Positions 12,158-49,558 of a stretch of DNA of 56,932 nucleotides are shown one piece after another. The translations under genes were made by a program, and so were the position numbers. The DNA is taken from assembly GCA_015228975.1 (NCBI GenBank), contig JADGCN010000009.1, positions 1-56,932 of the forward strand. The letters run 5' to 3'. The stretch comes from Magnetococcales bacterium. Its GTDB lineage: Bacteria; Pseudomonadota; Magnetococcia; Magnetococcales; UBA8363. The notes beneath the pieces were generated by a model, which did no database searches, was not told where the DNA came from, and was given only the letters and a program-made list of their open reading frames with translations. Within the stretch, counting starts at the first letter, position 1, and each line of letters starts with the position of its first letter.

Positions 12158-12326
12158 CCCCCTGCGGTGTTCGAGAGGACTGTCTTCCTCCTGAGCCGAT
12201 AACTACGAGCCCTGGGATCCTGCGCTGTCCGTGGAGAGTCTGCTGTATTGCTGACCGGAAGCGGTTATCGGGAGCCCACTTAATCCAAGGGTTCAGAGAG
12301 AGCGCGTCTAACGGCACATGTGGGGG
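12156..12326 (+). ncRNA. ssrS: 6S RNA
   Basis: This approximately 170-base interval between zapA and fau holds the hallmarks of 6S RNA, the sigma70-holoenzyme-binding regulator. The left arm contains CCTGAGCCGATA (12190-12201), nearly identical to the E. coli left-arm segment. The right arm contains CCAAGGGTTCA (12284-12294), again conserved. The ends are complementary (CCCCC near 12158-12163 with GGGGG near 12321-12327), closing the long rod with a central bubble. The position next to fau (ygfA) is the classical one. The exact 5' and 3' ends are estimates. It may be processed from a zapA transcript or have its own promoter inside zapA. Confidence 0.9.
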
Positions 12327-12333
12327 GGTTCCG

Positions 12334-33900: not shown

Positions 33901-34438
33901 CCAGATGGACCTGTTCCCTTTCCAAAATCTCCAATGCTTTCTGTCCATCTTCCGCCTGGAGTACTTCAAAGCCGTAGCGCTTGAGGAAGGTGACCAGCAT
34001 GGAGCGAACGCTGCGGGAATCGTCGACGGCGAGAATACGAATTTGTTTGTTTTTGCGGAAACGGCGAATGAAGTGGATGACGCCATCGATGACGCCAATG
34101 TTATCCTTGACGAAATAATCCAGGATCCCCTTGGCCATGATGCTGTCCTGCAAATCTTTTTTGTACATGCCGGTCAGGACGATGGCGGGAATTCCTTTTT
34201 TTCGGATGAAGTCGACGATTTCGCCATTGGGGGCCCCGGGGATGTACAGGTCGAGGATGGCCAGCAGAAAGGGGGTTTTGGTTGCTTCGACGACCTTGAC
34301 GGCTTCCTCATAACTTTTGGCCAGGGTGACCGGGTGTTCCAATTGTTGGCGGATGGTTCCCAAGAGCAGGGATGCAAAGCTTCGGGAGTCTTCGACAACC
34401 AAGAGTGGTTCCAGGGATTCCTGAGTTGATCGGGTCAT
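30968..34438 (-). CDS. Multidomain hybrid sensor histidine kinase (REC-REC-PAS-HisKA-HATPase-REC-REC-HPt)
   Basis: A soluble 1156-residue phosphorelay protein. In order: receiver 1 (Asp63), receiver 2 (Asp183), PAS (about 265-385), HisKA with SHEIRTPMN (His414), HATPase (about 510-630; GGTGLGLTI), receiver 3 (Asp705 in MIDWSLND), receiver 4 (Asp855 in LMDLQMPD), an HPt domain with AHATIGVAGNIGA (His998), then about 100 further residues of helical sequence. There is no membrane helix, so sensing is cytoplasmic, through PAS or the N-terminal receivers. The complete internal relay (His-Asp-His) suggests a downstream receiver, plausibly that of the overlapping second gene. Confidence 0.95.
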   Translation of the reverse strand: MTRSTQESLEPLLVVEDSRSFASLLLGTIRQQLEHPVTLAKSYEEAVKVVEATKTPFLLAILDLYIPGAPNGEIVDFIRKKGIPAIVLTGMYKKDLQDSIMAKGILDYFVKDNIGVIDGVIHFIRRFRKNKQIRILAVDDSRSVRSMLVTFLKRYGFEVLQAEDGQKALEILEREQVHLVITDYQMPRLDGIQLLKKVRAFHSRDELAVIGLSSVADGDLSVQFIKAGANDFLVKPFENEELLCRVTQNIEIIERHQELEKLVKRHTSVLENALDAIITTNATGDILDFNPAAETLFGYTFREVVGGHLTDFIIPPELKVQHLQGMSDHVANILSGQSSGLRKRFEIPGKRSNGEIVDLQVALTSVRLKDDLTFTAFLQDITDRKQLLRSLEETLRAAESANKAKSEFIANMSHEIRTPMNAVMGFTDLALKSDLSPKIRDYLEKVEGASHSLMGIINDILDFSKIEAGQMDLDPVRFDISDLFDRLADLFSKQVSDRGLELILMPPVEYDSVLFGDVLRIEQVLINLIRNAIKFTHEGTIVVHATIEEQEDNKVQLTFSIRDTGIGIDPDRLAKLFNPFVQADGSTTRKYGGTGLGLTISKRLVERMDGRIWVTSTPGQGSVFSFNVMATVAAKNRRKKVVVPGDLFGKRALVLDDNDLILEIVPSMLERLSLKGQGVRSMEEALALLLKANYGKDPFELLMIDWSLNDMDGITITNQIISTLRETTPPPRIPKIILLTSFGEDKFKQQSHEAGIDVCLDKPITNNRLVQAISAAFGKEQPRNERRVTKVLAQDYETAEVIGGARILLVEDNAINQQVARELLERVGLMVEIANNGREALDKIEHFSYDAVLMDLQMPDMDGFEATTILRNDDRFKNLPIIAMTAHALETERKRCIEIGMNGHIAKPIRPERMYGVLTKVIGPLKVLPDAANIKHNQLTLPTVSGINMKDGLERLGGNAKLYFRILLRFRKDQLHLAEELRSTVKSGNRLEAARLAHATIGVAGNIGAEKLSHVARELESFLGNKTVQDWREPVERFIAELSPVLEGLQVLENMTIKETSKEDDSIPPPNTDCVATQDAEAVAAVLHEMEELLDANSIEIASCLGHLHTLLPSASCKKTLKAIESEVEDYNFDKAMAMLQDLARQVGHALNGKSS

Positions 34439-34888
34439 GAGGGAGTCCGTTTGGCGTTTGCGAGCGTTCCTCTTTACAGGATGATGCCATGATCATCACC
34501 CTCTTTTCAATTGTGCAAAATACCCTGTTTTCCGCTGGGACACACGTAAAATCGCAAGGTTGTGTGCTTGAAGCGGGCTGTGTGGTTGGGGCGGGGTGGC
34601 GAACCGGGAAAAAGGGGGAGGGGTTGGAGGGATGGACGCAGATTGAGTGCGGATGGAGGGGTGGGTTTGCGTGCGGTAACGATTGCGGCAAATTTTTCCC
34701 CCGTCGAAGGAATACTTTTGCCTAGTGGCGTCTTTTCTGCCTTGCCGTTTTGCGCGTAACAATCGACCCAATATTTTGTAACGTATTGTTCTACAGTCGA
34801 TATATTTTTTCCACCAATCTGGCAATCCGTTTGCGTTAGCAATGTTGCACGCGCTGGAATCTTCAACTGACTACTACGGAGCAAGGAA
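34439..34888. other. Intergenic region with G-rich tract, 450 bases
   Basis: This separates the divergent hybrid kinase and ankyrin genes and should hold both promoters. No convincing gene is seen. The plus strand at 34588-34632 has six runs of three to five G with short spacers, a possible G-quadruplex. Confidence 0.5.
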
Positions 34889-35287
34889 ATGAAAATTCCC
34901 GGATTGGCGATGGTAATACCTGGCATCATGTTTTCCAGCATTATTGATATTTCCAGTACGGACATCGCACCGGAACAAGGCAAGCAGGATGGACAGGCTG
35001 CGACTGTGCATCATTGCGATGCTGTGGTACGTAACCCGGAAATCATGACCACATTACTTCTTCAAAATCGTCATCTCGATATTATGGATCTTCAGGGTCG
35101 CACAACACTCATGTGGGCAGCCGAGAATGGTGAGACCGAACTCGTAAAAAAATTGCTGGCATCGGGGGTTGACGTCAACGCCTCGGACTGGTGGGGACGG
35201 ACGGCTTTGAGCCTGGCGTTGGAAAAAGATTATCGCAAGATTATTGCCCTCTTGATTGAACATGGTGCCCATATCAGTGCTGGTTGA
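34889..35287 (+). CDS. Small ankyrin-repeat protein
   Basis: A 132-residue protein with two clear ankyrin repeats (about residues 68-100 and 101-132: GRTTLMWAAENGETELVKKL and GRTALSLALEKDYRKIIALL) and probably a degenerate one before them. The first 20 residues are hydrophobic but not a clean signal peptide. Ankyrin repeats mediate protein contacts; no partner is evident. An AAGGA site precedes the ATG. Confidence 0.82.
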   Translation: MKIPGLAMVIPGIMFSSIIDISSTDIAPEQGKQDGQAATVHHCDAVVRNPEIMTTLLLQNRHLDIMDLQGRTTLMWAAENGETELVKKLLASGVDVNASDWWGRTALSLALEKDYRKIIALLIEHGAHISAG

Positions 35288-35644
35288 TGTGTCCCGTGCG
35301 TCTGCTGATTGGTTGAGCTTGTTTGGTTGACCTTGTCCTGACCGCCTGTTCCTTACCCCGACCTGCCAGCCCTTTCCTTCTCTCTCCTTGTGAGAGGGCT
35401 TCAGGTGGGGTGGGGAGGGGGCAGGGCACTGACGAAAAAATTCCCCCGCTTTCTCCTCTTGATACATTTGCATGTCAACCTGCTTGGATCCCTGCGAACC
35501 CCATACCCCGTGTATCAAGGCTGGTAAAGAGGGGCAACCTGGGGTAAGGTGTGGGGGTGGTTTCCCCAGTGCCTAATAAGAGTTGTTTTAATAAGTGACG
35601 GCGCTTACCGTTGGTTCTTGAGCCGTTGAAAGTTCGAGGAACAC
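35288..35644. other. Intergenic region with guanine tracts, 357 bases
   Basis: No gene seen. The plus strand has an almost ideal G-quadruplex pattern at 35407-35426 (runs of 4, 4, 5 and 3 G with loops of 1, 1 and 2). Just before it is a short inverted repeat of the CTCTC...GAGAG type (around 35380-35398). Such sequences often belong to dispersed intergenic repeats. Confidence 0.5.
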
Positions 35645-36103
35645 ATGTCCCTGACCATCCATCCCGATTCCATTGAGCAAGCCCATGAACTCATCGATAT
35701 CCTCTATAATAATCTGGAGGACGGTACCATCAAGATGCAGGAAGCGGAGGATTTGGTGCAGGCCAACAAACGGGTAACCGAACTTTTGCTGCAATCGGTG
35801 GAAAATATTTTGGGTACCATCGGCCAGATCAAGAAAGTTGCCAGTCAGACCAAACTGTTGGCCATAAACGCCGGTATTGAGGCGGCCCAGGCCGGCGATG
35901 CGGGACGCGGTTTCCTGGTGGTGGCCGAGGAGGTCAAGGAACTCTCCAGGCAAACATCCGCCGCAACCACCAACATCATTCGGGAAATTCAAGAAATTCA
36001 GGGCACTACCGACGAAGCGGCCATCAGTCTCAAGACGATGATCAAGAAAATTGATGAGGTCAAGCTGGCCAATCACCATGTGTTGTCGATCATTGGCCGA
36101 TGA
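35645..36103 (+). CDS. Minimal soluble methyl-accepting chemotaxis-type signalling protein
   Basis: A 152-residue, wholly helical protein with no membrane segment, HAMP or ligand domain. Residues about 50-125 match the chemoreceptor hairpin: the tip reads QTKLLAINAGIEAAQAGDAG and continues into GRGFLVVAEEVKELS, the region that binds CheW and CheA. The flanking helices are short, so it lacks most of the methylation bundle. It could modulate a chemosensory array or work as a small adaptor. GAGGAA precedes the ATG. No che gene is nearby; the methyltransferase gene follows after 19 bases. Confidence 0.85.
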   Translation: MSLTIHPDSIEQAHELIDILYNNLEDGTIKMQEAEDLVQANKRVTELLLQSVENILGTIGQIKKVASQTKLLAINAGIEAAQAGDAGRGFLVVAEEVKELSRQTSAATTNIIREIQEIQGTTDEAAISLKTMIKKIDEVKLANHHVLSIIGR

Positions 36104-36122
36104 AAGGAAATAGGTACTTGTA

Positions 36123-38336
36123 TTGCCCATAGAAGATCAATTTGATGTTCCCTTCATAGCCCGAATGGCGTTGAAGGAGAAGCAAGTTCAACAGAACTAC
36201 CGACCCATCATTGCCGTACATAAATGGTTTGCGCGCCGTCCTGGGACCCTCTTTCGTGGCCTTCTGCTCAGTGAATTTGGTGAGGGACCGGTTGCCGATG
36301 CCTTCTTTCGTTCCCACACCTTTCCAGGCATCAAGGTGGCCGATCCGTTTATGGGTGGTGGAACACCCCTGTTGGAAGCCAATCGCATCGGGTGCGATGT
36401 TATCGGATTCGATATCAACCCCATGTCCGCTTGGATCGTGCATGAAGAGATTGAGCCTCTCGACTTATCAGCCTACCATTCTACTGCCGAAGCCTTATTG
36501 CGCTTCTTGGACCAGAAGGTCGGCGGTCTGCAAACGACTTGTTGTACGCTTTGCGGCCACGCTTCAGCCTCTGCCAAAAGCTATCTGTGGGTCAAGACAC
36601 TACCCTGTGAGGAATGTGGAAGGGATGTCAACCTTTTTCCAGGTTTCCTGGTAGCGAAGGATCGACGTCACACAAAAAATGTTCTGCTTTGCCCGCAATG
36701 CGGAGAACTCTGCGAAGTTGACGATTTATCCGATCCGGGTTCTTGCCATGTTTGTCATGGTGTTTTAAGCCTGGAAGGCGTTGCCAGGAAGGGGCATTGC
36801 AATTGTCATCATTGTGGACGGAGAAACACCTATCCCCGACCTGATGCAGGACCACCTGAACACCGGATGTTCGCCATTGAGTACCATTGCCACCATTGCA
36901 AGGTGGGGCACAAAGGGCGGTTCTTTAAAAAGCCCGATCCAGGGGATCTGGAAGCGTATGCTTTGGCGGAACGTCAGTGGCAGGCGATGGAGGCCCGGTT
37001 TGTGCCTGTGGAAGACATCCCTTTGGGAGACGAGACGGGCCGGTTGCATCGGTGGGGTTATCGGCGCTACCGGGATATGTTCAATGCCCGGCAATTGCTG
37101 GGTTTGGAATGGAGCGCCCGGTTTATTGAAAAGGTGGGTGACGCACGTATTCGGCGTGCTTTGGCTACAAATCTGTCGGATCTGCTGCGCTACCAGAACA
37201 TGCTTTGCCGTTATGATGTTATGGCGCTGAAGGCCTTGGACATCTTTTCCATTCACGGTTTCCCCGTGGGGTTGGTCCAGTGTGAATCCAACCTGCTTGG
37301 AATAGCGAATGGCCGGGGTGTCAACGTGGGCAGCGGTGGATGGCGGAACATCATCGACAAGTATTCTAAGGCCAAGGCGTATTGCGATCACCCATTTGAA
37401 GTGGACCATCGCGGATCTCGTAAGGTCCAGATTCCCATTCATGGGGAGTGGATTGGCGAAGCCCGACTCAACGGCAAGGCGTTTTCTCCACGCCAAGTTC
37501 AGTTGCAGTGCCAAAGCGCCACAACTGCTGATCTGCCGGAAAACAGCCTGGATGCGGTTTTTACCGATCCCCCTTATTTCGGTAATGTGCAGTACGGCGA
37601 ATTGATGGATTTTTGTTTCGTCTGGTTGAAGCGTCTGGCCAGGGACGATTTGGTAAGGTGGGGTGGGGATACATCCAAGCATGCCGATGAGCTTACGGGC
37701 AATGCAACCCAGGCGCGAGGCCTTGAACATTTTACCACTGGGTTGTCCGTGGTCTATTCCAGGATGGCCAAGGCGCTGAAACCCGGCGCTCCTCTAGCCT
37801 TCACCTATCATCATAACCGGCTGGAGGCCTATGGTGCGGTCGGCGTGGCTATCCTTGATGCTGGTTTGACCTGCTCGACTTCTATTCCCTGTCCTGCGGA
37901 AATGGGTGGCTCTATTCACATCCATGGAACAGGTTCATCCATCGTGGACACGGTCTTCGTTTGCCGTAAGCATGGCCATGTGGATGCCCGGCAATTGTTC
38001 TACGATACCGAACAGTTGCTTGATATTGTTGACAGGGACCTCGAAGCTTTACGTCTGGGAGGTGTCCAGCCAACATTGGGCGATATTCGCTGTATCCTGT
38101 TCGGTCATTTGACGCGCATGGGCGTTTGGAACCTGCGGAAAACGTGGGAGCCTGGCCTGCCCGTCGAACAAAAGCTGCATAGATTTACTCAGGCACTTCA
38201 ATGGCTCCCTGATTTTTCCAGAGTTCTTGACCGGGCTGGTAAGGAGCAAGATGATGATCGGCATCTCGGCGGTCTGTTTGCTGGTCGTCCTTTTCGTTCA
38301 TCATCCCTGGAGGGCAATCATGCCGTTTCCTTTTGA
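36123..38336 (+). CDS. Zinc-ribbon adenine-specific-type DNA methyltransferase (COG1743-like)
   Basis: A 737-residue predicted DNA N6-adenine or N4-cytosine methyltransferase. Motifs: HKWFARRPG (33-41), the SAM-binding DPFMGGGTPLLEA (74-86) with the acidic FDINP (96-100), and the catalytic TDPPYFGNVQYGEL (481-494). Between them (about 140-265) are at least six Cys pairs (CTLC, CEEC, CPQC, CHVC, CHHC, CHHC), i.e. several zinc ribbons likely to bind DNA. The only usable start is TTG at 36123, after an in-frame stop at 36111; the TAGG before it is a weak ribosome-binding site. Its end overlaps the nuclease gene by 17 bases. The pairing suggests restriction-modification or another defence use. 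Confidence 0.88.
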   Translation: MPIEDQFDVPFIARMALKEKQVQQNYRPIIAVHKWFARRPGTLFRGLLLSEFGEGPVADAFFRSHTFPGIKVADPFMGGGTPLLEANRIGCDVIGFDINPMSAWIVHEEIEPLDLSAYHSTAEALLRFLDQKVGGLQTTCCTLCGHASASAKSYLWVKTLPCEECGRDVNLFPGFLVAKDRRHTKNVLLCPQCGELCEVDDLSDPGSCHVCHGVLSLEGVARKGHCNCHHCGRRNTYPRPDAGPPEHRMFAIEYHCHHCKVGHKGRFFKKPDPGDLEAYALAERQWQAMEARFVPVEDIPLGDETGRLHRWGYRRYRDMFNARQLLGLEWSARFIEKVGDARIRRALATNLSDLLRYQNMLCRYDVMALKALDIFSIHGFPVGLVQCESNLLGIANGRGVNVGSGGWRNIIDKYSKAKAYCDHPFEVDHRGSRKVQIPIHGEWIGEARLNGKAFSPRQVQLQCQSATTADLPENSLDAVFTDPPYFGNVQYGELMDFCFVWLKRLARDDLVRWGGDTSKHADELTGNATQARGLEHFTTGLSVVYSRMAKALKPGAPLAFTYHHNRLEAYGAVGVAILDAGLTCSTSIPCPAEMGGSIHIHGTGSSIVDTVFVCRKHGHVDARQLFYDTEQLLDIVDRDLEALRLGGVQPTLGDIRCILFGHLTRMGVWNLRKTWEPGLPVEQKLHRFTQALQWLPDFSRVLDRAGKEQDDDRHLGGLFAGRPFRSSSLEGNHAVSF

Positions 38337-39372
38337 GATCCCTTTCGAAGAAGTTCGGGGAAATTTGGATCATTATGTTGATGAAGTCTTCGGTTGCCTC
38401 CAGTCGGAATTTCTCGTATTGCCCAAAGGGCCAGGATTCGTTGAATACCCGCTTTTCGAGGAGGGATTTGAGGCACTGAAGAAGGCGACTGGGAATTTCC
38501 ATGATTTTTCCCCCGAACGGGTTTATCATGTCGTTGTGACATACCCTATGGCTTTGATTCTTCTCCGCTGCATGTTGGGTTTTACACCGCCGGAGTGGGC
38601 CTATGTGGCGACCCAAAGAACGGGGGTTGAAGTGACCCAGGGGGCTGTTCGTTCCCTGGATCGAAAGATCCGCATGAATCCTCGTGTTCCTCTTGCTGGG
38701 ATACGAGGCGGACTGACCATGCAACGGGTGCAAGCCCTGGTTGAAACAGCCTGCGTCTTGTTGGTGGAAGGCGCACCGTCGGTTCCAGACGACAAGCTAC
38801 ACCGTCTGAACAAGGCCGATACCATGGCTGGCTTGGTAGGTCTGCGGTCCATGGTCAATCTGGGTGTTCCCTATCCTGTTTTGCTTTATGAACGATTTTT
38901 GGGACGTCCTTTCGCGGGACACCGAGACTCGGTGAGTGAATTGGTTGGTGATATGCTGGAAAACGCCATTGAGGAAGTTCTGCACCGGGCGGGCATCAGC
39001 TTCCGCAAGACCAAACGGGCACAACGTCTGCCAGGGTTTGATCAAGCGCCCGATTTTATTATACCCAATGAGTTCAACCCGAAGGTGATCATCGAAGCCA
39101 AACTGACGGAGGATGATGGCACGGCTCGGGTTAAGGTGACCCGGGTACAGCATTTGAGTCAATTGAGTTTGGAGGGTCAGTCCCTAAATTCTCCGAAGTA
39201 TGAGGTGATCGCTTGTATTGCCGGACGCGGATTCGGTGTACGGCGGGAAGATATGAAAAAGTTACTCTTGGCTACCCGTGGCAAGGTGTTCACCCTACAG
39301 AATATGAACCAGCTGATCGATAAATCCTCATTGAAATGTTTTCGTACTTTGAACTTACCAGAATCCTTATAG
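38320..39372 (+). CDS. Putative PD-(D/E)XK restriction-type endonuclease
   Basis: A 350-residue protein not assigned to a named family. Near the C-terminus it has APDFIIP then KVIIEAKL (residues 243-262), which fits a PD-(D/E)XK catalytic core: Asp245, Glu259, Lys261. An upstream helix with Glu217/Glu218 may complete the site. The N-terminal 200 residues show no recognised domain. The start at ATG 38320 has GGAGGG six bases upstream and overlaps the methyltransferase gene; a longer in-frame start (38227) would add a spurious hydrophobic stretch. Overlap with the methyltransferase implies coupled production of a cognate nuclease. Confidence 0.7.
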   Translation: MPFPFEIPFEEVRGNLDHYVDEVFGCLQSEFLVLPKGPGFVEYPLFEEGFEALKKATGNFHDFSPERVYHVVVTYPMALILLRCMLGFTPPEWAYVATQRTGVEVTQGAVRSLDRKIRMNPRVPLAGIRGGLTMQRVQALVETACVLLVEGAPSVPDDKLHRLNKADTMAGLVGLRSMVNLGVPYPVLLYERFLGRPFAGHRDSVSELVGDMLENAIEEVLHRAGISFRKTKRAQRLPGFDQAPDFIIPNEFNPKVIIEAKLTEDDGTARVKVTRVQHLSQLSLEGQSLNSPKYEVIACIAGRGFGVRREDMKKLLLATRGKVFTLQNMNQLIDKSSLKCFRTLNLPESL

Positions 39373-39381
39373 GAATATGAA

Positions 39382-39765
39382 TTGAAAATAGTTTCTATAT
39401 TCAATAATAAGGGTGGCGTTGGAAAGACAACGCTGACTTTTCATTTGGCACATGCCCTGGCGGTGATGGGGCACAAAACACTGCTTATCGACCTGGATCT
39501 GCAGTGTAATTTAACTGTTCACGGTTTAGAACAGGAGGAGTTACATGATATATGTAAATCTGAGGATAAATTTAATGTTGTCGATAACTTCTGCGAGAGT
39601 GTTTATTGTACCATTGCACAACATGTGTTGGTCGTTACTCTCTGGGACGAAGTGACCACCTGCGTGAAGAGGAGTCGGTTACCAAATGTCCAGGGAGTAC
39701 CCATGATCGAAAATAACGAAGGGGTGAGGTTCGTTCCGGGTCATGATCGATTGTGGGAATATTAG
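39382..39765 (+). pseudogene. Truncated ParA/Soj-type ATPase
   Basis: A 127-residue fragment beginning [20 protein letters not shown], with a deviant Walker A (KGGVGKTT) typical of ParA, and then [12 protein letters not shown] (canonical DxDPQ, here Pro replaced by Leu). ParA-type ATPases are usually 200-300 residues. The catalytic Asp of the later DTSP/DxxP region and the C-terminal half are absent. The end reads [13 protein letters not shown], followed by TAG, and only 24 bases separate it from the end of the Rpn gene. The start is TTG 39382 with AGGA eight bases upstream. It is lower in GC than its neighbours. It may be a relic, or a short form with a new role. Confidence 0.75.
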
Positions 39766-39789
39766 CGATATTTCCTTGAGAAATTGATG

Positions 39790-40848
39790 TCACGTTTTGT
39801 CTGAGAAAACATCATCCAGGGATTGAGCGTCCAGAATGCGGTCGGTCCATGTCTCGATTTTTTCCAAGGAAGCAACCTTCAGTTTTTCTTCCACCAAGTT
39901 TGGGAGTTTGGGACCGAGTTTTTTTTGGAGGAGACGGAGAAAGGTGCGAGTGGCTTCTTCCCGAAGCCCTTCCCGAAGTCCTTCCCGAAGCCCTTCCTGC
40001 CGTCCTTCCTGCCGTCCTTCCTGTCGCCCTTCCTGTCGCCCTTCCTGCCGCTCTCTCTGCAGCACTATCTGTGTCCATTTGTTATCTTTATTGGCAATAA
40101 CATCTCGTGCAAATTGTGACATCATGTTTTCCTCCTCCTCCGGTCGAACTTGCCGGATAATTTCTCGGATGGTTTGTTCGTCGTAGCTTCCATAGGTCTC
40201 AACGATGTAGCGAATGATGACGTATTGCTCTTCCGGCACTTCCAAAAGAGCCTCGACCAGCAACTCTTTGATCTCCCCTTGCCGACCTTCCCGAGTCGCA
40301 TATTTTACCGCCAGTAACCAAGCTCTCAGTCGGGGGTGTCTGGACAACATCCGATCTTCGATCTTGCCAAGATCCATGACTACGAAGCGAAGGTTCAGAA
40401 GCCATGGTTTCCAACCTGCCTCAGTATCTACCAAAGCCAGAAATTCATCAGGGATACGCCACTCCGATGCCCCATGATAAAAGACAAAGGGGACGATAGG
40501 TGGCATTATTTCCCAATCGGGATTGTCGCGTTCCCACTGTTTCCACCATTCGACCGTGTACTTGACAACTTGCCATCCTACCCGACGGTCTGGAAAGCTC
40601 TTATGCTCAATCAGAACATACAAAAGCGCTGTCCGACCTGTGATTGTTTTTGCCTGAAAAAGCCGATCAGTCAGATGACTGCGCAATTCCTCATCAACGA
40701 AAGATCCATTCACCAGAATCGGAGGTTCAGGTGACAATAACGCGGATATTTCCTTTGGCAAGCGTTCGTGCAGCAGGTCTCCAGCTTTTCCTGGATCGGA
40801 AAGCAGAGCTTTTACAAATCGGTCATGCGGTTGCGCGATATCGGTCAT
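39790..40848 (-). CDS. Rpn family recombination-promoting nuclease / putative transposase (YhgA-like)
   Basis: A 352-residue protein of the Rpn/YhgA group. The N-terminal nuclease-like domain includes PHDRFVKALLSDP and a PD-(D/E)XK-type core (DRLFQAKT then VLIEHKS, residues 61 and 81-83). A C-terminal DUF4351-like region (about 290-350) follows a low-complexity linker of five RQEG and two LREG units. Rpn proteins promote RecA-independent recombination in E. coli and vary at such repeats. ATG 40848 is preferred to the in-frame TTG at 40854. It is convergent with the ParA remnant. Confidence 0.88.
   Translation of the reverse strand: MTDIAQPHDRFVKALLSDPGKAGDLLHERLPKEISALLSPEPPILVNGSFVDEELRSHLTDRLFQAKTITGRTALLYVLIEHKSFPDRRVGWQVVKYTVEWWKQWERDNPDWEIMPPIVPFVFYHGASEWRIPDEFLALVDTEAGWKPWLLNLRFVVMDLGKIEDRMLSRHPRLRAWLLAVKYATREGRQGEIKELLVEALLEVPEEQYVIIRYIVETYGSYDEQTIREIIRQVRPEEEENMMSQFARDVIANKDNKWTQIVLQRERQEGRQEGRQEGRQEGRQEGLREGLREGLREEATRTFLRLLQKKLGPKLPNLVEEKLKVASLEKIETWTDRILDAQSLDDVFSDKT
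39967..40050 (-). repeat. Seven tandem 12-bp units inside the Rpn gene
   Basis: Seven consecutive 12-base units of the form CCCTTCCTGCCG (plus-strand reading, with CCGAAG and TGTCG variants) encode the RQEG/LREG repeats of the linker. The unit is a multiple of three, so copy-number changes would lengthen or shorten the linker without shifting frame. Confidence 0.9.
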
Positions 40849-41020
40849 TAACAAAGCCCTGGGATCAAGGCATTCAAGAAATCATTATTTAAGCCTATGG
40901 CCATTTTTTGCATCGATCTGTTGCACAGTCGTGCCCCGGACGAAATTGTCCCCGATTTTTCGGCTGTCGTCCACTGGAATCGTCCTGAGCCATTTTGTTG
41001 GATCTTCCCTTGAAGATGGG
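40849..41020. other. Short intergenic region between the Rpn gene and the Anbu cluster
   Basis: 172 bases downstream of the DUF2126 gene and upstream of the Rpn gene, both on the minus strand. A small inverted repeat (CCGA...TCGG, near 40953-40964) is present without a T-run suited to termination. I see no gene. Confidence 0.4.
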
Positions 41021-44000
41021 TTATTGCTTGATGGAACCTGTTTTTCCCATGGGAAAGATGCGTCGCAGATCCAATGTTGTCGATAACTCCCGTGTGGTGG
41101 TCAGGGGGTCGTCGCGCAGTAAGAGCTGACCACTCCCTTCCGGGACGAAGCGGCCACTGGCGGGTGGGGGTGGGGTGGTTTGCCAGGTTCCCAGGGTGTG
41201 CCCATGTTCCCAAAAGCGGCTGAAACGCCGGGATTCCGCTTCCAGACCATTGATGGGGAAGGTGTCGTAGTGCCGTCCACCCGGATGAGCGACATGATAG
41301 CTGCATCCGCCAATGGCGCGTTGATTCCACAGGTCGATGACGTCAAAAACCAGGGGAGAGTGGACCGGCATCAGCGGATGGAGCCCCGATGGTGGTTGCC
41401 AGGCCTTGAAACGGACTCCGGCAACGTATTCCCCGTTGATACCTGTGGAGCGCAACGGTAACCGGTAGCCGTTGCAGCTTACCCCATGCCGCTCCGGGAC
41501 AATTCCCGAAACTTTCACCTGTAACCGTTCCACGGAAGAATCGACGAAACGGGCGGTCCCTTGCCGGGTCGTTTCCTCACCCAAAACATGCCAAGGTTCC
41601 AAAGCTTGCCGCAATTCCAGGGTGACGGTCCCGTACTGAACCGATCCCAGAGTGGGAAAGCGAAAGGATAAAAACGGGTCGAGCCAGGATGGATCGAACG
41701 GATAGCCGGCTTGGTTCATCTCCTCGACCACGTGACGCAAATCGGATTCAACAAAGAAAGGGAGCATGAATTGATCATGCAAGGCACTGCCCCAGCGGAT
41801 CAGGGGGTGACGATACGGTTGCCGCCAAAACCAGGCGACAAAAATTCTGAGCATCAAGGCTTGTACCAGACTCATGTAAGCGTGCGGCGGCATTTCAAAG
41901 GCGCGCAATTCCAACAAACCCAAACGACCCGCATAGCCTTCGGGGGAATAGAGTTTGTCGATACAAAATTCGGCGCGATGGGTATTGCCGGTGAGATCGA
42001 CCAGGAGGTGCCTGAGCAGGCGATCCGCCAGCCAAGGGCGAGAAACCATCCCTTCGGGAATTTGGCTCAAGGCGATTTCAAGTTCATGCAAACTGTCCAG
42101 GCGCGCCTCATCGACCCGGGGGGCTTGGCTGGTTGGACCGATGAACAGCCCGGAAAAGAGGTAGGACAAGCCCGGATGATGTTGCCACCAGGTAATCAGG
42201 CTGGCCAACAGGTCGGGGCGTCGCAACAGCGGACTCAAAGAGGGATTGGGGCCGCCAATGGTCATGTGATTACCCCCACCGGTGCCGGTATGTCGGCCAT
42301 CGACAAGAAATTTTTCGGTTCCCAGGCGTGACAGTTTCGCCTCTTCGTACAGGGCAATGGTTTTGTCTTTCAGGGTATCCCACGTGAGGGACGGATGGAT
42401 GTTGACTTCGATGACCCCCGGATCGGGTGTTATGAAAAATCGTTGCAGGCGAACATCTTCGGGTGGCGCATACCCCTCCAGAATCGGGTCGATGCCGGTA
42501 GTGCTGGCGGCGGTTTCGATAGCCTGGATGAGTGCGATGAAACTTTCCAGGCGCACCAAAGGGGGGAGGAACAAGAATAACTTGCCGTCTCGGGGTTCCA
42601 TGGTCAGGGCGGTGCGGACAAATCCCTGGCGATGGCGTCCAACAGGGGGGCGATGGGGCAGGGGAACCTCGGGTGACAATGGGCAACGTTCGGCATCGAC
42701 CGGACTCAGGCCGTGCTGATTCAGGCTATCCAAAGGCAAGCGCAATCCCATGGGCGAGTCGCCGGGGAGCAAAAAAATCTCTTTTTGCCGCACCACCCAG
42801 GGACCGCTGATCCATTCATCCGTATCCACATCGTGATCCAGGGGGAGGAGATACCCCACGGGTTGCCCCAATCCCTGGTGTAACAACCGCGCCAAGCGTC
42901 GTCGTTCCAACGGATCCTTCAGGTTTGCGGTCATGGGATCGCAATCGGCAGGCAAGGTGGCTTCTTTCCAAAGGTGGTAGAACGGGTCTTCGTAAGCCGG
43001 CCTGATAAAGCGATCAATCCCCCCCAACGCTCTTCCCAGTTCGCTCAGAAATCGTTGGGCGGCAGTGGCATCGAGCGATTTTTCCGGCCCGTTGAACAGA
43101 TAGGGCCGGTTCCAAAGGGGGATGCCATCGGTACGGAAGAAACAGCCGTAGCGCCAACGCGGCAACTCTTCCCCCGGATACCATTTGCCTTGGCCCAGAT
43201 GGAGCAATCCCCCCGGGGCGAAACGGTTCCGCAGTCGCTGCAACAGATCCAGGGCCAGGGTACGTTTGTGCAAACCGTCTGCCGCTACGGTCCACTCCGG
43301 GGCGTCCATGTCATCGATGGACACGAAGGTGGGTTCGCCCCCCATCGACAGATGGACTTCTCCCGCCGTCAATTCATCATCCACCTGGTGGCCCAAACAA
43401 TCGATGGCTTGCCATTGTTCCTCGGTGTAGGGTTTGGTGGTTCGCGGAGTTTCCCGAATACGGGTCACCGTGTTTTTAAATTTTAATTCAGTCCGACACG
43501 GATCGGTCAAGCCACTGACCGGGGCGGCACTCGCATAGTGGGGGGTGCAGGCGAGAGGGATGTGTCCCTCTCCGGCGAACAATCCCGAAGTGGGATCCAG
43601 ACCCAACCAACCCGCCCCGGGGACATAGACCTCGCACCAGGCATGCAGATCGGTAAAATCCTGGGAGGGTCCGGAGGGTCCATCCAAGGATTTTTCATCG
43701 GCGGTCAATTGGATCAGGTATCCCGAAACAAAGCGTGCCGCCAAGCCCAGGCGCCGCATCGCCTGCACCAAGGTCCAAGCGCTGTCGCGGCAGGAGCCGG
43801 TTTTTTTACGCAACGTCTCCTCGGTTGTTTGCACCCCGGGTTCCAAGCGGATGGTGTAGCCGATTTCCTGCCACAGGCGGCGATTGATCGCGACTAAAAA
43901 GTCGATGGTGTTGATGTCCTTTTCAAGTTTGATCTCCTTCAGCCAACGTTCCAACAGGGGGCTTTTTTCATCGATGACCAGGTAGGGTGCCAATTCTTCC

Positions 44001-44332
44001 CGCAATTCGGCCGCATAAGAAAAGGGAAAGGTTCGTGCCTCCTCTTCGAGGAAAAAATCGAAGGGATTGATGGTGATCATGGAGACCTTGATTTCCACAT
44101 CCACGATGAGTTCCCGACATTTTTCGGGAAATACCAGACGGGCGTTGTAGTTGCCGAACGGATCCTGGAGCCAGTTCATGAAATGGTTTTCGGGTTGCAC
44201 CTTGATGGAAAAGGCTTCCAGAGGGGTACGGCAATGGGGTGCGGGTCGCAGGCGCAGTACATGGGGCGACAGGGTAATGAAACGGTCGTAGCGATAGTGG
44301 GTGTGATGGTGGATGATAACGCCGATGCTCAT
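41021..44332 (-). CDS. Transglutaminase-like protein fused to DUF2126
   Basis: A 1103-residue protein. Residues about 1-290 are a bacterial transglutaminase-like N-terminal domain plus a papain-like core with the full triad: Cys181 (GSCRDSAW), His230 (LHAW) and Asp246 (GLDPTSG). The remaining 800 residues are DUF2126, with segments such as SMGGEPTFVSIDDMD and GGGNHMTIGG typical of that family. Proteins of this layout are encoded beside Anbu, alpha-E and ATP-grasp genes and are thought to process or ligate peptide tags. Its ATG overlaps the stop of the Anbu gene by four bases. Confidence 0.92.
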   Translation of the reverse strand: MSIGVIIHHHTHYRYDRFITLSPHVLRLRPAPHCRTPLEAFSIKVQPENHFMNWLQDPFGNYNARLVFPEKCRELIVDVEIKVSMITINPFDFFLEEEARTFPFSYAAELREELAPYLVIDEKSPLLERWLKEIKLEKDINTIDFLVAINRRLWQEIGYTIRLEPGVQTTEETLRKKTGSCRDSAWTLVQAMRRLGLAARFVSGYLIQLTADEKSLDGPSGPSQDFTDLHAWCEVYVPGAGWLGLDPTSGLFAGEGHIPLACTPHYASAAPVSGLTDPCRTELKFKNTVTRIRETPRTTKPYTEEQWQAIDCLGHQVDDELTAGEVHLSMGGEPTFVSIDDMDAPEWTVAADGLHKRTLALDLLQRLRNRFAPGGLLHLGQGKWYPGEELPRWRYGCFFRTDGIPLWNRPYLFNGPEKSLDATAAQRFLSELGRALGGIDRFIRPAYEDPFYHLWKEATLPADCDPMTANLKDPLERRRLARLLHQGLGQPVGYLLPLDHDVDTDEWISGPWVVRQKEIFLLPGDSPMGLRLPLDSLNQHGLSPVDAERCPLSPEVPLPHRPPVGRHRQGFVRTALTMEPRDGKLFLFLPPLVRLESFIALIQAIETAASTTGIDPILEGYAPPEDVRLQRFFITPDPGVIEVNIHPSLTWDTLKDKTIALYEEAKLSRLGTEKFLVDGRHTGTGGGNHMTIGGPNPSLSPLLRRPDLLASLITWWQHHPGLSYLFSGLFIGPTSQAPRVDEARLDSLHELEIALSQIPEGMVSRPWLADRLLRHLLVDLTGNTHRAEFCIDKLYSPEGYAGRLGLLELRAFEMPPHAYMSLVQALMLRIFVAWFWRQPYRHPLIRWGSALHDQFMLPFFVESDLRHVVEEMNQAGYPFDPSWLDPFLSFRFPTLGSVQYGTVTLELRQALEPWHVLGEETTRQGTARFVDSSVERLQVKVSGIVPERHGVSCNGYRLPLRSTGINGEYVAGVRFKAWQPPSGLHPLMPVHSPLVFDVIDLWNQRAIGGCSYHVAHPGGRHYDTFPINGLEAESRRFSRFWEHGHTLGTWQTTPPPPASGRFVPEGSGQLLLRDDPLTTTRELSTTLDLRRIFPMGKTGSIKQ

Positions 44333-45102
44333 GCCGGTTCTCCCGTGGTGTCGACTCTGTGACGGTTTGCTTGTTCCCAGGTGAACTCGGGAAGCCTTTG
44401 GAACAGGCGTTTCAGGCCGTTATTCCAGCTTTTGCGCAAGGCGATCAGATAGGGGGTGTTTGCATCGAAGCGGGCATGGATGCCCCCATCGATCTGATTT
44501 TTGCGATACACCATCAGGTCCAGGGGGAGGCCGACGGACAAGTTGGATCGCATGGCGGAATCCATGGAGACCAGGGCGCAACGGGCGGCATTTTCCAAGG
44601 AGGTTTCGTGGGTTATGATACGATCCAGGATGGGTTTGCCATATTTGGTTTCGCCAATCTGCAAGAAGGGATTGTAAGGTGAGGGGGTGATGGGATTACC
44701 CTCGGGATAGATCAGGTAGAGCTGCGGAGCCTGACCGGTGATTTGCCCTCCCAGAATAAAGGTGGCATCGAAACGTGCATCGGAATGAGCCTTGCTTGTA
44801 TACTGTTCCTGAATGGCTATACTCAATCGACCGATGTGATGGGCCGCTTCTTCCATATTGTCGACGTTGGCCAGAGAAGGGGTGTGACTGTCGTTGAGTT
44901 GCGCCTCGCGTTGCAAATGGCTGACCACCGCCTGGGTTGTTGCCAGATTGCCGGATGACAGCAGGGCCATATGGCGCTCGTTGGCCCAGGTGAAGGCATG
45001 GGTTTTGGTATAACAGGCTATTTGGTCGACGCCGGCATTGGTACGTGAATCAGAAGCCAGAACGATGCCGTCATCCAGTAAAATTCCAACGCAATAGGTC
45101 AT
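44329..45102 (-). CDS. Anbu (bacterial proteasome-related) peptidase
   Basis: A 257-residue Ntn-hydrolase of the Anbu/proteasome-like family. After removal of Met1 the N-terminal nucleophile would be Thr2 (M-T-Y-C-V-G). Other signatures are DDGIVLASDSRTNAGVD (about 9-25), which includes the conserved Asp and the Ser-Arg-Thr-Asn-Ala-Gly loop, and FILGGQITG. It should assemble into a self-compartmentalised ring. The open frame continues far upstream, but the family start is ATG 45102 with AAGGAAAG before it. Only 29 bases separate it from the divergent ATP-grasp/alpha-E gene. Confidence 0.93.
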   Translation of the reverse strand: MTYCVGILLDDGIVLASDSRTNAGVDQIACYTKTHAFTWANERHMALLSSGNLATTQAVVSHLQREAQLNDSHTPSLANVDNMEEAAHHIGRLSIAIQEQYTSKAHSDARFDATFILGGQITGQAPQLYLIYPEGNPITPSPYNPFLQIGETKYGKPILDRIITHETSLENAARCALVSMDSAMRSNLSVGLPLDLMVYRKNQIDGGIHARFDANTPYLIALRKSWNNGLKRLFQRLPEFTWEQANRHRVDTTGEPA

Positions 45103-45131
45103 GATACTTTCCTTGATGAGGAGTTGCATGG

Positions 45132-47684
45132 GTGACAGGTATGTCTGAACCCGGTTCGGCAAGCTACGATGAGGCTTTTGCCGCGCCAGCGGAACCGAGG
45201 GGCCACTGGCGTCAGTTTTTTGATCATCTGTATGCGGGTGGACCCGATCGACCGGGGCGCCTTTGGGATGAGGCCCGGCATCTGCTCCGGGAGTCGGGGG
45301 CGGTGTATGCTGTCGCCGCTGGTACCACCACGCAACGCCGTCCTTGGCCGTTTGACCCCATTCCCTTGATACTGGATGGTTCGGAATGGCAGCGCCTGGA
45401 AGCGGGTTTGATCCAGCGCCACCATTTGTTGAACCTGCTGTTGCGTGATTTGTATGGCATGCAGCGGGTGTTGGCCGAGGGGATTTTGCCCACCGAATTG
45501 ATTTATGGCAGTGATGCTTTTTTGTTTCCCCTGTGGGGTGGCATGGCGCGCAAGGTGACTTTGTCGCTTTACGCAGCCGATTTGGTACGCATGCCGGATG
45601 GGCGTTTTCATGTGGTATCGGATCGTACCCAGGCCCCTTCGGGTCACGGCTATGCCCTGCAAAACCGGCGATTGTCGAATCGGTTGTATCCATCCCGCGC
45701 ATCCTTTGGTCCGGTACAACCGTTGCAGCCGTTTTATCGCGGTCTGCGCAATGCCCTGACCAGTCTGACGCCGCAGACGGCGCAGACGGCGCACATCGTT
45801 CTGATGACCCCGGGACCGGCCAACGAAACCCATTTTGAACATACCCTCCTGGCCCATTCCATGGGGTTGACCTTGGCGCAGGGCAACGACATGACGGTGC
45901 GTAATGGCCGTTTGTGCCTGAAAACGTTGGGGGGATTGTTGCCAGTGGATGTGGTGTTGCGTCGGGTCGATGAAGCTTGGTGTGATCCCCTGGAATTGCG
46001 CGAGGACTCCCTTTTGGGGGTGGTTGGTATGGTGCAGGTGGTGCGCGAGGGGCATACCGTCATGGCCAACCCCCTGGGGAGTGGCATCCTGGAAAACCTG
46101 GGATTGCATCCTTTCATGCCGCAGCTTTGTCGTTTTTTTCTGGGTGAAACTCTTCATCTGGAGAATCCTGAAACGTTATGGTTGGGCCATGCCCCTTCAT
46201 TGCGTCGCGTCCTGGATTCGTGGCATGACAACCACTCGCCCTGGGCCATATTACCGCTGCAACCCGATTATTCCCTGCCGGTGAACGGCTTGGCGCACGA
46301 TCAAGCCTTGCGTGCGCAACTTGCAACCCATCCGTCCCGTTTTGTGGCCCGTTCCCTGGTGCAACCTTCGCAGGTACCGGGGATTGATGCCCAGGGAATG
46401 TGCCGTCGTCACCTGTTGCTCCGGGCTTTTCTCCATCACGACGGCAACAATTCCCTGGTCATGCCCGGGGGCTTGGCCCGGGTATCTCCTTCAGCAGGTA
46501 GCGATGCGCTCTCCTCCCAGGGTGATCGCTATCCCTTTTCCCCCGCTCAGGGGGGGTCAACCAAAGACGTCTGGATCCTGGGTGCCAAGGAACAACCTTT
46601 CAGTGAATCCTCTTCGGGCACTTTGACCCAGGATTTGGCAGCGCATGCCGGCCTGCCCAGCCGCGTTGCCGAAAATTTGTTTTGGATGGGGCGCTATGCG
46701 GAACGTTCTGAAAGTGTCATCCGACTGTTTCGCGAAGCCACCACCCAGAGGGAAGAGGAGGAGTTCGGCCTCAACCCCGAACAACGTCGGTATTGCCGCA
46801 ACCGACTGTTGACCACTTTGACCCACGTTACCGGTACCTATCCAGGGTTTACCGGTGCTGATGCCCAACTGCTCTTGACCAATCCCGATCATGAATTGCG
46901 TTCGGTGTTGCTTGACTTAAACCGGGTTGGTTCCCTGGCTTTTTCGCTGCAAGCCTTGATTCAGGCTGGTTTTTCCCTGCGCGACCGCCTTTCTTCCGAC
47001 ACCTGGGGGATCCTTGACAACATCAGTACCCACCTGGGGCGTTGGCAGCGGCATCGAACCGATCCCATCAATCATCTTTTGTGGGATCTGGGCCCGCTGT
47101 TACAGGGATTGACCGCCCTGGCCGGGTTAACCTGGGAAAACATGATTCGCGACCAGGGATGGTTGTTCCTTGACCTGGGGCGGCGTCTGGAGCGGGCCAT
47201 GTTTCTGGCGCAACTCCTGGAAAGTTGCCTGGGGGATGCGGCACCACATGCCGATGAAATGGCCATGTTGGAGCGTCTCCTGGCCCTGAACGATGGATTG
47301 GAAAGTTTTCGCTTGCATTTTCAAACCCGTTTGGAGATTGAAGCGGTGTTGGCCAAATTGCTTCAGGATGATACCGATCCGCGTTCGCTGGTCTTTCAGT
47401 TGACCCTGATGGAGGCGCATGCCCGGCAAACGCCCCGTTCCCCGGGACAGACGCTGTATCGCACCGCGTTGGGTCGCACGGTCTTTGAAAGCCTGGCCGC
47501 CGTTCGTCTGGCTGACGCGGACACGTTGGCCCGGGTCAATCCTGAAACACGCCGTCGCGATCACCTGATGCAATTGACCGAGCGCATTCGCAATCTTTTG
47601 CCCATGTTTTCCGAAACGGCGAGCAACAATTATTTCCGACATGCCGACTCTCCCTACCACCTTTTTACCGTTCGTAACTCATAA
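45132..47684 (+). CDS. Circularly permuted ATP-grasp protein fused to an alpha-E domain
   Basis: An 850-residue protein. Residues about 20-490 match the circularly permuted type 2 ATP-grasp family (WPFDPIPLILDGSEWQRLEAGLIQR near 75-100, and GGSTKDVWILG near 475-485). From about residue 507 (GLPSRVAENLFWMGRYAERS) the chain is an alpha-E (DUF403) domain. Each half has a stand-alone relative in the opposite arm of the cluster (49.6-51.0 kb and 48.5-49.6 kb). The family is predicted to form amide or peptide bonds. GTG 45132 has GAGGAG ten bases upstream; ATG 45141 is an alternative. Confidence 0.9.
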   Translation: MTGMSEPGSASYDEAFAAPAEPRGHWRQFFDHLYAGGPDRPGRLWDEARHLLRESGAVYAVAAGTTTQRRPWPFDPIPLILDGSEWQRLEAGLIQRHHLLNLLLRDLYGMQRVLAEGILPTELIYGSDAFLFPLWGGMARKVTLSLYAADLVRMPDGRFHVVSDRTQAPSGHGYALQNRRLSNRLYPSRASFGPVQPLQPFYRGLRNALTSLTPQTAQTAHIVLMTPGPANETHFEHTLLAHSMGLTLAQGNDMTVRNGRLCLKTLGGLLPVDVVLRRVDEAWCDPLELREDSLLGVVGMVQVVREGHTVMANPLGSGILENLGLHPFMPQLCRFFLGETLHLENPETLWLGHAPSLRRVLDSWHDNHSPWAILPLQPDYSLPVNGLAHDQALRAQLATHPSRFVARSLVQPSQVPGIDAQGMCRRHLLLRAFLHHDGNNSLVMPGGLARVSPSAGSDALSSQGDRYPFSPAQGGSTKDVWILGAKEQPFSESSSGTLTQDLAAHAGLPSRVAENLFWMGRYAERSESVIRLFREATTQREEEEFGLNPEQRRYCRNRLLTTLTHVTGTYPGFTGADAQLLLTNPDHELRSVLLDLNRVGSLAFSLQALIQAGFSLRDRLSSDTWGILDNISTHLGRWQRHRTDPINHLLWDLGPLLQGLTALAGLTWENMIRDQGWLFLDLGRRLERAMFLAQLLESCLGDAAPHADEMAMLERLLALNDGLESFRLHFQTRLEIEAVLAKLLQDDTDPRSLVFQLTLMEAHARQTPRSPGQTLYRTALGRTVFESLAAVRLADADTLARVNPETRRRDHLMQLTERIRNLLPMFSETASNNYFRHADSPYHLFTVRNS

Positions 47685-47693
47685 AGGTCACGC

Positions 47694-48626
47694 ATGCGTT
47701 ACCTGATTCGTCATACCACCCGCTACCATTACCCGGAAGCGGTCACTTTGTGTCACAACCGGGTGATGTTGCAGCCGGCTGAGCGGGATGACCAACATTG
47801 CCAGGGGTTTCACCTGCAAGTGGACCCCGAACCCAATATCATTCGTTCTTTTCAAGATTTTTTCGGTAATTCCATTCATTATTTTGAAATCCACAGGGCC
47901 CACTCCAAGTTGGAAATCACCGCTACGAGCGAGGTGATTCGTCATGTTGATCCGGGGTATACCCTGCCCATGTCACCCCCGTGGGAGGAGGTTCAGGCCA
48001 ATCTGACCGGAGCCGATGCCCTCCTGGAGATTCGGCGCCAAACCTTGTTTGCCATGCCCTCACCTTTGGTTGCGTTACATCCCGAGCTACAGGTTTTGGC
48101 GGACCGGGTATTGACGCCACATCGTCCCTTGTTGGAGGCGGTGTTGGATTTAACCTTACAAATCCACCAATCTTTTGCGTATGCCCCGGGATCCACCTCC
48201 GTTTCCACGCCGCTGGTCCAGGTACTGACCCAAAAGGCGGGTGTTTGTCAGGATTTTGCCCATGTTGCCATCTCCGTTCTCCGCTCCAAGGGTCTTGCGG
48301 CACGGTATGTCAGTGGTTACCTGGAGACCCAACCGCCACCAGGTCAACCCAGGCTGCAAGGGGCCGATGCCTCGCATGCCTGGTTTGAGGTTTTGCTGCC
48401 CGGTGTCGGTTGGATCGGTTTTGATCCCACCAATGCCACGCTGGCCCGGCATCGTCACGTCATCCTGGCGGTGGGACGCGACTATGCCGACGTACCGCCC
48501 GTGAAAGGTGTTGTAACCGGTGGTCGCAAACATCGGCTGAGTGTGGCGGTGGATGTCATCCCGTTGGACGAAGCGCCACTTTCCGCCCCAGCCGAAGGTG
48601 CGGGGGGTGTTTTTTTGACCTCCTGA
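47694..48626 (+). CDS. Transglutaminase-like cysteine peptidase family protein
   Basis: A 310-residue protein with the bacterial transglutaminase-like N-terminal domain (MRYLIRHTTRYHYPEAV) and a core with Cys185 (AGVCQDFAH), His228 (ASHAWFE) and Asp244 (GFDPTN). In this genomic context it probably hydrolyses or transfers a gamma-glutamyl-type peptide made by the ATP-grasp protein. It follows the ATP-grasp/alpha-E gene by nine bases. Its last 145 bases are convergently overlapped by the alpha-E gene. Confidence 0.93.
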   Translation: MRYLIRHTTRYHYPEAVTLCHNRVMLQPAERDDQHCQGFHLQVDPEPNIIRSFQDFFGNSIHYFEIHRAHSKLEITATSEVIRHVDPGYTLPMSPPWEEVQANLTGADALLEIRRQTLFAMPSPLVALHPELQVLADRVLTPHRPLLEAVLDLTLQIHQSFAYAPGSTSVSTPLVQVLTQKAGVCQDFAHVAISVLRSKGLAARYVSGYLETQPPPGQPRLQGADASHAWFEVLLPGVGWIGFDPTNATLARHRHVILAVGRDYADVPPVKGVVTGGRKHRLSVAVDVIPLDEAPLSAPAEGAGGVFLTS

Positions 48627-49558
48627 TCAAAGTAGGTCCGGGTGATTGTCTGATGCAGTTCGCCCAGAAGTATTTGCAGCCCGTCCAGGAAATCGTGCAA
48701 TCCGGTATTGTCGGCCAGCCGGGTGATATCGGCCAGGTAGAGGCGATCCTCGATGCGGGCGATGATCCCCTGGGCCATGTCGGCCCCCCCTATGAGTTCC
48801 AAACATTGGGCGACTCCCGTGACCCCATAGCGAAACGCCCGGGGGAAGGCTTTGTCCTTGAGTAAAAAGGCCAGTACGTCCACACCACGGATGCGTGGTC
48901 GCACGCGTCTGCGATACATCTGGTCGCCCGACAAGGACTTGAGTACCGTCAACCATAGGGCGTTACGAATGGGACGATCCACGACATCTTCCCGGGTTAG
49001 CATCAAAGCCCCGCGAACATCCAGGATACGGGTGACCATATCGGCCCGTTCCAGATAGCGCCCTAGGCGAAACATGCTGAAGGTTTCGTCGCGAACCATG
49101 GTCGAATCCAAAAGGCCGATGATCATAAGGCATTCGTTGATGACCATTTCCAAAAATTCCAGGCGATTGGCCGGGTCAATATCCTGGGTGCAGGCGGATC
49201 GTGTTTTCAAGAACAGACGATTGAGAAATTCCCATCCTTCCCGGGGGAACATTTCCCGCGTCGTGCGGAAATTTTCCCGGGCTTGCTGCAATCCCCGCAA
49301 GATGGAACCGGGATACTCTTCGTCCCGAATCAAGAAGCTGGTGATTTGCTGTTCATCCGCCGAAAGATGTCTTGCGAAAAACATCTCCCTGCTGCCGGTG
49401 ATTGCCAGGAGCTGTTCCCAATTCATCGGGCGGATACGGCTGACCGGCGCCATATCCAGCATGGCATGATGCGTCGCCAAAACCAGGCGTGCGGTATCTT
49501 CGACCCGTTCCAGATAACGGGCCATCCAGTAAATGTTTTCGGCAACACGCGAAAGCAT
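48482..49558 (-). CDS. Alpha-E domain protein (DUF403)
   Basis: A 358-residue, largely helical protein. It begins MLSRVAENIYWMARYLERVED, matching the start of the C-terminal half of the 850-residue fusion and the alpha-E family. The conserved region ends near residue 310; the following 45 residues (Pro, Ala, Ser and Thr rich) are encoded antisense to the end of the transglutaminase gene, so the tail is probably an extension acquired through loss of an earlier stop. The start overlaps the stop of the ATP-grasp gene by one base (TAATG). Confidence 0.92.
   Translation of the reverse strand: MLSRVAENIYWMARYLERVEDTARLVLATHHAMLDMAPVSRIRPMNWEQLLAITGSREMFFARHLSADEQQITSFLIRDEEYPGSILRGLQQARENFRTTREMFPREGWEFLNRLFLKTRSACTQDIDPANRLEFLEMVINECLMIIGLLDSTMVRDETFSMFRLGRYLERADMVTRILDVRGALMLTREDVVDRPIRNALWLTVLKSLSGDQMYRRRVRPRIRGVDVLAFLLKDKAFPRAFRYGVTGVAQCLELIGGADMAQGIIARIEDRLYLADITRLADNTGLHDFLDGLQILLGELHQTITRTYFDQEVKKTPPAPSAGAESGASSNGMTSTATLSRCLRPPVTTPFTGGTSA

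Follow-up and report, generated by a model that had tools for sequence, protein, structure and literature searches.

Two overlapping forward-strand genes in a 56,932-nucleotide stretch of Magnetococcales DNA (contig JADGCN010000009.1, positions 1 to 56,932; hereafter the window), part of a 3.75-Mb draft genome that is 76% complete, very probably form a restriction-modification system of a Type II-like, two-gene kind, with a predicted DNA methyltransferase encoded upstream and a predicted PD-(D/E)XK nuclease downstream. A first-pass annotation had proposed a restriction or defence pair with an unfamiliar nuclease, and our analysis supports this, the nuclease matching no model in the libraries searched. 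The logic of restriction-modification is standard; what appears new is the union of a zinc-ribbon COG1743 methyltransferase with this nuclease in a minimal unit of two genes. The pair was not described in those libraries or in the accessible text of the literature covered, including PMC7641849, PMC12839542, and PMC3710099, with REBASE, bioRxiv, and most subscription papers, where it may be listed, lying outside the search.

Conserved pairing and distribution of the two genes

Relatives were collected by a profile scan of genome contigs with the nuclease alignment, in which the best 80 of at least 110 relatives were kept, so that the counts given here apply to the family's nearer members; a viral-contig scan added five relatives, for 85 loci in all. 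In 84 of the 85 (L010–L093), the nuclease was 54–97% identical to that of the window, and a methyltransferase match lay directly upstream in every case (51–97% identity in the best segment, some matches being clipped by contig ends). Co-occurrence in other genomes, on which the first-pass annotation had staked its proposal, was thus without exception among these closer homologues. The nearest named relative, a Magnetococcales metagenome-assembled genome (PEAK01000017.1, L007), showed 97% identity in both proteins, and ratios of nonsynonymous to synonymous substitution rates (dN/dS, NG86, overlap excluded) against it were 0.245 for the methyltransferase and 0.076 for the nuclease, indicating purifying selection on both genes. 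Because the 84 closer relatives all keep both genes in the same order, and given these dN/dS values, the pairing is not due to chance.

The methyltransferase and nuclease genes overlap by 17 bases (38320..38336, forward strand), as reported earlier, and overlaps of 17 or 20 nucleotides between methyltransferase stop and nuclease start recurred in 71 of the 84 relatives (43 and 28, respectively). Seven others overlapped by 4, 14, 23, or 32 nucleotides, and six had a gap, one of these behind a frame-broken methyltransferase. When 833 open reading frames (ORFs) from 84 loci were clustered, no family other than the two genes was common; the third most frequent occurred in 7 of 84 loci, at variable positions and on both strands. 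Flanks of at least 2 kb on both sides were available in 47 of the 84, and a rarer or more distant partner could escape. In these loci the two genes are linked, and they appear to require no further gene.

The 80 genome loci carried 17 phylum labels (three loci had none), including Thermodesulfobacteriota, Myxococcota, Pseudomonadota, Verrucomicrobiota, Acidobacteriota, Nitrospirota, and the archaeal Methanobacteriota. Labels were taken from submitters' titles (many "Deltaproteobacteria" becoming Myxococcota), mostly for metagenome-assembled contigs, so individual labels could be in error. Mapped onto the tree of methyltransferases, they were clustered yet mixed, with 29 changes (minimum 15, shuffled mean 48.9), which suggests transfer between phyla. 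Among genomes related to the window's, the nuclease was present in 4 of 100 and a strong methyltransferase match in 4 of 61, these being the same four genomes; within the genus, two of eight genomes had the pair, three of the eight being less than 80% complete. Histidine-kinase, ankyrin, and MCP genes stood together without the pair in the stretch examined of one sister genome (G004), and the pair is therefore accessory. Two loci carried irregular copies: a frame break splits the nuclease in L009 (3542–4859, genome G020), where the methyltransferase is intact, and L020 (8169–8830) has a second, partial methyltransferase copy ∼1.1 kb downstream of the nuclease.

Predicted enzymes and a second nuclease branch

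The methyltransferase gene (36123..38336, forward strand) starts with TTG and encodes 737 residues, exactly as the first-pass annotation had described it. The claimed motifs were likewise located, namely motif I, DPFMGGG (residues 74–80, 36342..36362), and motif IV, DPPY (residues 482–485, 37566..37577), with six CxxC pairs all in between. Motif I binds S-adenosylmethionine (SAM), and the DPPY motif is catalytic. The Pfam models N6_N4_Mtase (just above cut-off) and D12 matched around motif I, a PHROG DNA methyltransferase matched the 737-residue protein (E = 1.4e-88), and matches to three PADLOC models (DUF1156_MTase, HmaB, and PglXI) were also obtained. An N-terminal DUF1156-like segment (residues 12–50, 36156..36272, E = 0.018) did not reach the Pfam cut-off for that domain (15.6 bits vs. 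24), and the N-terminal VHKWFARRPG motif was mostly invariant in the 78-row methyltransferase alignment. This alignment comprised the window and 77 loci; cut, partial, or frame-broken sequences (L024, L031, L063, L079, L083, L084, and L088) and the different methyltransferase of L094 were left out. The predicted fold is that of class I methyltransferases, with VIA-align covering the class I core only, and Foldseek gave no match to the model at E 0.001. Several of the 20 plasmid relatives listed of 125 records (27–31% identity over 80–90% of the query) are annotated as DUF1156 or DNA methyltransferases. By its motifs and predicted fold, the protein is a putative amino-methyltransferase with SAM-binding and catalytic motifs, of a DUF1156-like family that we take to be COG1743. 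A COG1743-like methyltransferase was also seen with a different partner set, DUF262 and HEPN-like nuclease genes, on an 8.2-kb Tabrizicola plasmid (L097, 2367–6936).

The six CxxC pairs, which start at residues 141, 162, 190, 208, 228, and 256, make up the zinc-ribbon part of the insert (residues 141–259, 36543..36899, forward strand). Pairs 2–5 were invariant in the 78 aligned methyltransferases, and pairs 1 and 6 were retained or lost jointly in 78 of 78 (all six pairs in 57; pairs 1 and 6 not both complete in 21), a pattern that fits a pair of inner zinc sites together with an outer one that can be dispensed with. The coupling of pairs 1 and 6 needs only two changes on the tree (sign test, p = 0.5) and is thus weak. 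Five plasmid-borne COG1743-like relatives with other neighbors have two to five CxxC motifs in the same interval, and the motifs, in which the first-pass annotation had seen a possible determinant of target choice, are therefore a trait of the family rather than special to this locus.

The mechanically called nuclease ORF begins at 38227; the start conserved by relatives is the ATG at 38320, giving the 350-residue protein (38320..39372, forward strand) of the first-pass annotation. Its PD…EAK core comprises D245 (within APDF) and E259-A-K261 (39052..39102); D245, E259, and K261 were invariant in all 84 rows of the nuclease alignment (the window and 83 of 85 loci; L031 and L076 were omitted for an in-frame stop), and the predicted core strands span residues 246–248 and 256–262. 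Structure prediction, which had been suggested as a check, returned a PD-(D/E)XK fold, and the protein is accordingly modeled as an endonuclease with a recognized nuclease fold and intact active-site residues. BsoBI (CYCGRG) and BstEII (GGTNACC) are Type IIP restriction endonucleases. The predicted overall fold has in common with both an N-terminal helical part and the PD-(D/E)XK core (245–249 residues aligned), but the alignment identity is 10–11% and there is no sequence-profile match, and we liken the nuclease to these enzymes by fold and do not assign it as a member. No model matched in NCBIfam or PADLOC at E 1 or in PHROG at 0.1, nor did the Pfam restriction endonuclease models at E up to 1; the only Pfam match was to the TPD model, below threshold (E = 0.006).

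A second branch of the nuclease family is formed by the Microbacterium sp. BDGP8 plasmid pMspBDGP8A (L006) and the viral contig L094, with 26–27% identity to the window's nuclease and tblastn E values of 1e-18 (L006, 27% over 90% of the query) and 3e-20 (L094). An hhalign comparison of alignments A1 and A5 is circular, L006 being in both, and the independent support is the tblastn E of 1e-18. In this branch the nuclease directly follows a methyltransferase of small size with SPPY placed ahead of DPFAGG; its profile match to the window's methyltransferase is limited to the surroundings of motif I. The two genes touch in L006, where the methyltransferase is annotated under restriction-modification and, unlike the window's, has 308 residues and no zinc-ribbon insert. 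Among solved structures, M.PvuII was nearest in sequence to the small methyltransferase of L094 (E = 1.3e-21), a likeness that concerns this methyltransferase only, the window's own being of other architecture. M.PvuII is an N4-cytosine methyltransferase with the site CAGCTG. That one nuclease family stands beside two methyltransferase builds is as expected for a restriction enzyme needing a protector. It is possible, though we hold it doubtful, that the endonuclease is the conserved unit of a widespread restriction family, matched by no searched model, which recruited either a COG1743 methyltransferase with zinc ribbons (in loci bearing 17 phylum labels) or a small PvuII-type one, the two protecting an identical or closely related site. 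When 249 genomes of the phylum were searched with the second-branch nuclease, no further member and three first-branch ones only came up. On the downstream side of the L006 pair, two genes away, is an annotated nuclease of the Shedu family (7352–7747). In L094 (15–8624), the nuclease and its PvuII-like methyltransferase, apparently a phage-borne restriction-modification pair, share the contig with a phage head gene and an integrase of the serine-recombinase type.

Other viral contigs carried the methyltransferase. In L107 (4956–8755), a 49% identical methyltransferase is followed, two genes on, by an integrase (PHROG match; tyrosine type assigned by eye), and the 3 kb behind the methyltransferase hold the integrase and no detectable nuclease; it is likely a phage self-protection gene. 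Contigs L105, L108, L109, and L111, with close methyltransferase matches, end too soon behind the gene to show a nuclease, and L110, L112, and L114, with distant COG1743-like genes (23–28%), gave no nuclease match.

Proposed mechanism, alternatives, and candidate target site

We propose that the upstream gene would supply an N6-adenine or N4-cytosine methyltransferase protecting the host's target site, and that the PD-(D/E)XK endonuclease would recognize the same site alone, helped by its N-terminal helical part, and cut it when unmethylated, with phage defence as the probable outcome. The gene overlap may couple translation such that the methyltransferase is made first.

Constant pairing and correlated divergence would also fit a nuclease acting in complex with the methyltransferase, as a joint two-subunit enzyme of Type I- or IIB-like character, and the long insert between motifs I and IV carries zinc ribbons that could supply target recognition. 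We consider such an enzyme unlikely, since the nuclease aligns full length to stand-alone restriction endonucleases and its distant family members sit with a small methyltransferase that resembles the window's around motif I alone. A repair or homing endonuclease beside a solitary methyltransferase, like Vsr with Dcm, is the least probable of the readings weighed and barely credible: hits of that kind cover the core only, whereas the alignments with BsoBI and BstEII extend along the entire chain, and to our knowledge amino-methyltransferases do not yield the deaminating base served by Vsr.

The Hma system holds several genes in addition to its methyltransferase. The pair might be a fragment or variant of such a multi-gene COG1743 system (BREX-related, Hma, or DUF499/SNF2 type) working with distant partners, as the three PADLOC matches, a match to NF042963, and the plasmid COG1743-like relatives beside DUF499, alkaline-phosphatase-annotated protein, ATPase, DUF262, and HEPN genes could indicate. 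However, NF042963 was matched far under its cut-off (95.8 bits vs. 1000), and no helicase, ATPase, or phosphatase-like family recurred in the 84 loci (flanks being short in many); positions 34438–41021 of the window held no such partner except a ParA fragment, and we regard this origin as very improbable. COG1743/DUF1156 methyltransferases occur in BREX-related, Hma, and COG1743-DUF499-SNF2 systems (PMC12839542, PMC7641849). The window's methyltransferase shares with them a DUF1156-like start, and the order of motif I, insert, and DPPY and the CxxC motifs of the insert are found also in the plasmid relatives; these systems hold several further genes, whereas here one nuclease gene alone recurs.

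CAGCTG was an attractive lead for the target because M.PvuII is nearest to the second-branch methyltransferase. In a scan of the flanks of 85 loci (617,744 bases pooled), it ranked first by z among 64 six-base palindromes, with 75 occurrences vs. an expected 181 (0.41). In the full set of 1432 sites, CTAG and some degenerate or shorter ones showed a stronger z than CAGCTG. The ratios in three control sets were 0.69, 0.55, and 0.75. CYCGRG was mildly depleted in the flanks (0.88) and GGTNACC was not (1.00). Six carriers pooled gave 0.19 vs. 0.65 for CAGCTG, with mild depletion in two of the six (G261 and G011). Whole-genome counts, which used 48 carrier genomes, ignore kinship and GC content, and come without expected values, gave p = 0.025 for 21 carriers of the window's branch vs. 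32 non-carriers, p = 0.039 for 27 other carriers (median 146 sites per Mb), and p = 0.49 for 4 carriers vs. 16 non-carriers in Magnetococcales. These counts do not confirm the CAGCTG lead, and the non-carriers G003, G004, and G026 were among the most CAGCTG-depleted genomes. In these three Magnetococcales genomes, which lack the pair, both CAGCTG and GTCGAC are very rare genome-wide.

Several results weigh against a restriction-modification system. A profile search of PDB sequences with the nuclease gave no restriction enzyme at E up to 10, the best Foldseek match of its model reached just E 2e-3, and the predicted TM-score (pTM) of the model was 0.57. The nuclease was without a match in 50,697 phage records, and 72,556 plasmid records gave just the one distant match in Microbacterium; the window's combination is on no phage or plasmid record of these sets, which favor cultured hosts, and for a mobile system such an absence is uncommon. 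In a few relatives, such as L088, it is the methyltransferase that is broken; no defence island was seen surrounding the pair, and avoidance of CAGCTG did not hold in the within-order control.

A two-gene restriction-modification system of this composition would otherwise be of an ordinary kind. It would tie a poorly understood group of methyltransferases, so far discussed, in the accessible literature, in multi-gene defence systems, to a directly testable two-gene form, and would assign a likely role to nucleases left unnamed as a family in the searched annotation and defence libraries despite near copies in many phyla. Since one nuclease family occurs with methyltransferases of two types, it would also become possible to ask which partner sets the recognized site.

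Genomic surroundings

The first-pass annotation had joined the pair with a truncated ParA, an Rpn nuclease, and a degenerate recombinase in one accessory module. Family matches identified both a truncated ParA-like ATPase (39382..39765, forward strand) and an Rpn/Transposase_31 family protein (39790..40854, reverse strand), which lie outside the system and occupy most of 39372–41021. The recombinase was not found: tblastn of four recombinase/integrase proteins from related loci against the window gave no match at E 1e-4, a search that a short or far-diverged remnant would escape, and the ORF scan covered some of the window's ORFs. Nor did the neighbors hold together as a module, no third gene family being common among the 84 loci and the ParA and Rpn genes being rarely conserved. 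Among 89 related loci, the Rpn match was confined to one sister genome (L007/L010), and a ParA-like frame right behind the nuclease was found only in the window's genus (the same sister genome) and in L066 (Desulfovibrio; 4519–4695, with 47% identity across 59 residues). L086 also has a ParA-like match, but at a distance from the nuclease. The ParA fragment of the sister genome is 66% identical to the window's, vs. 97% for the nuclease.

Downstream of the nuclease in genome G011 (L008, 4253–6553) are a C-terminal piece of a serine recombinase and a Mutator-family transposase, and serine recombinases also lie near the pair in L006 and L094, which fits movement by mobile elements. Beside the pair in the window, positions 41021–51024 hold a cluster of DUF2126 amidoligase/transglutaminase, circularly permuted ATP-grasp, Alpha-E, and proteasome-like protein genes, and a 6S/SsrS RNA gene lies at 12156–12330 (forward strand, 79.2 bits).
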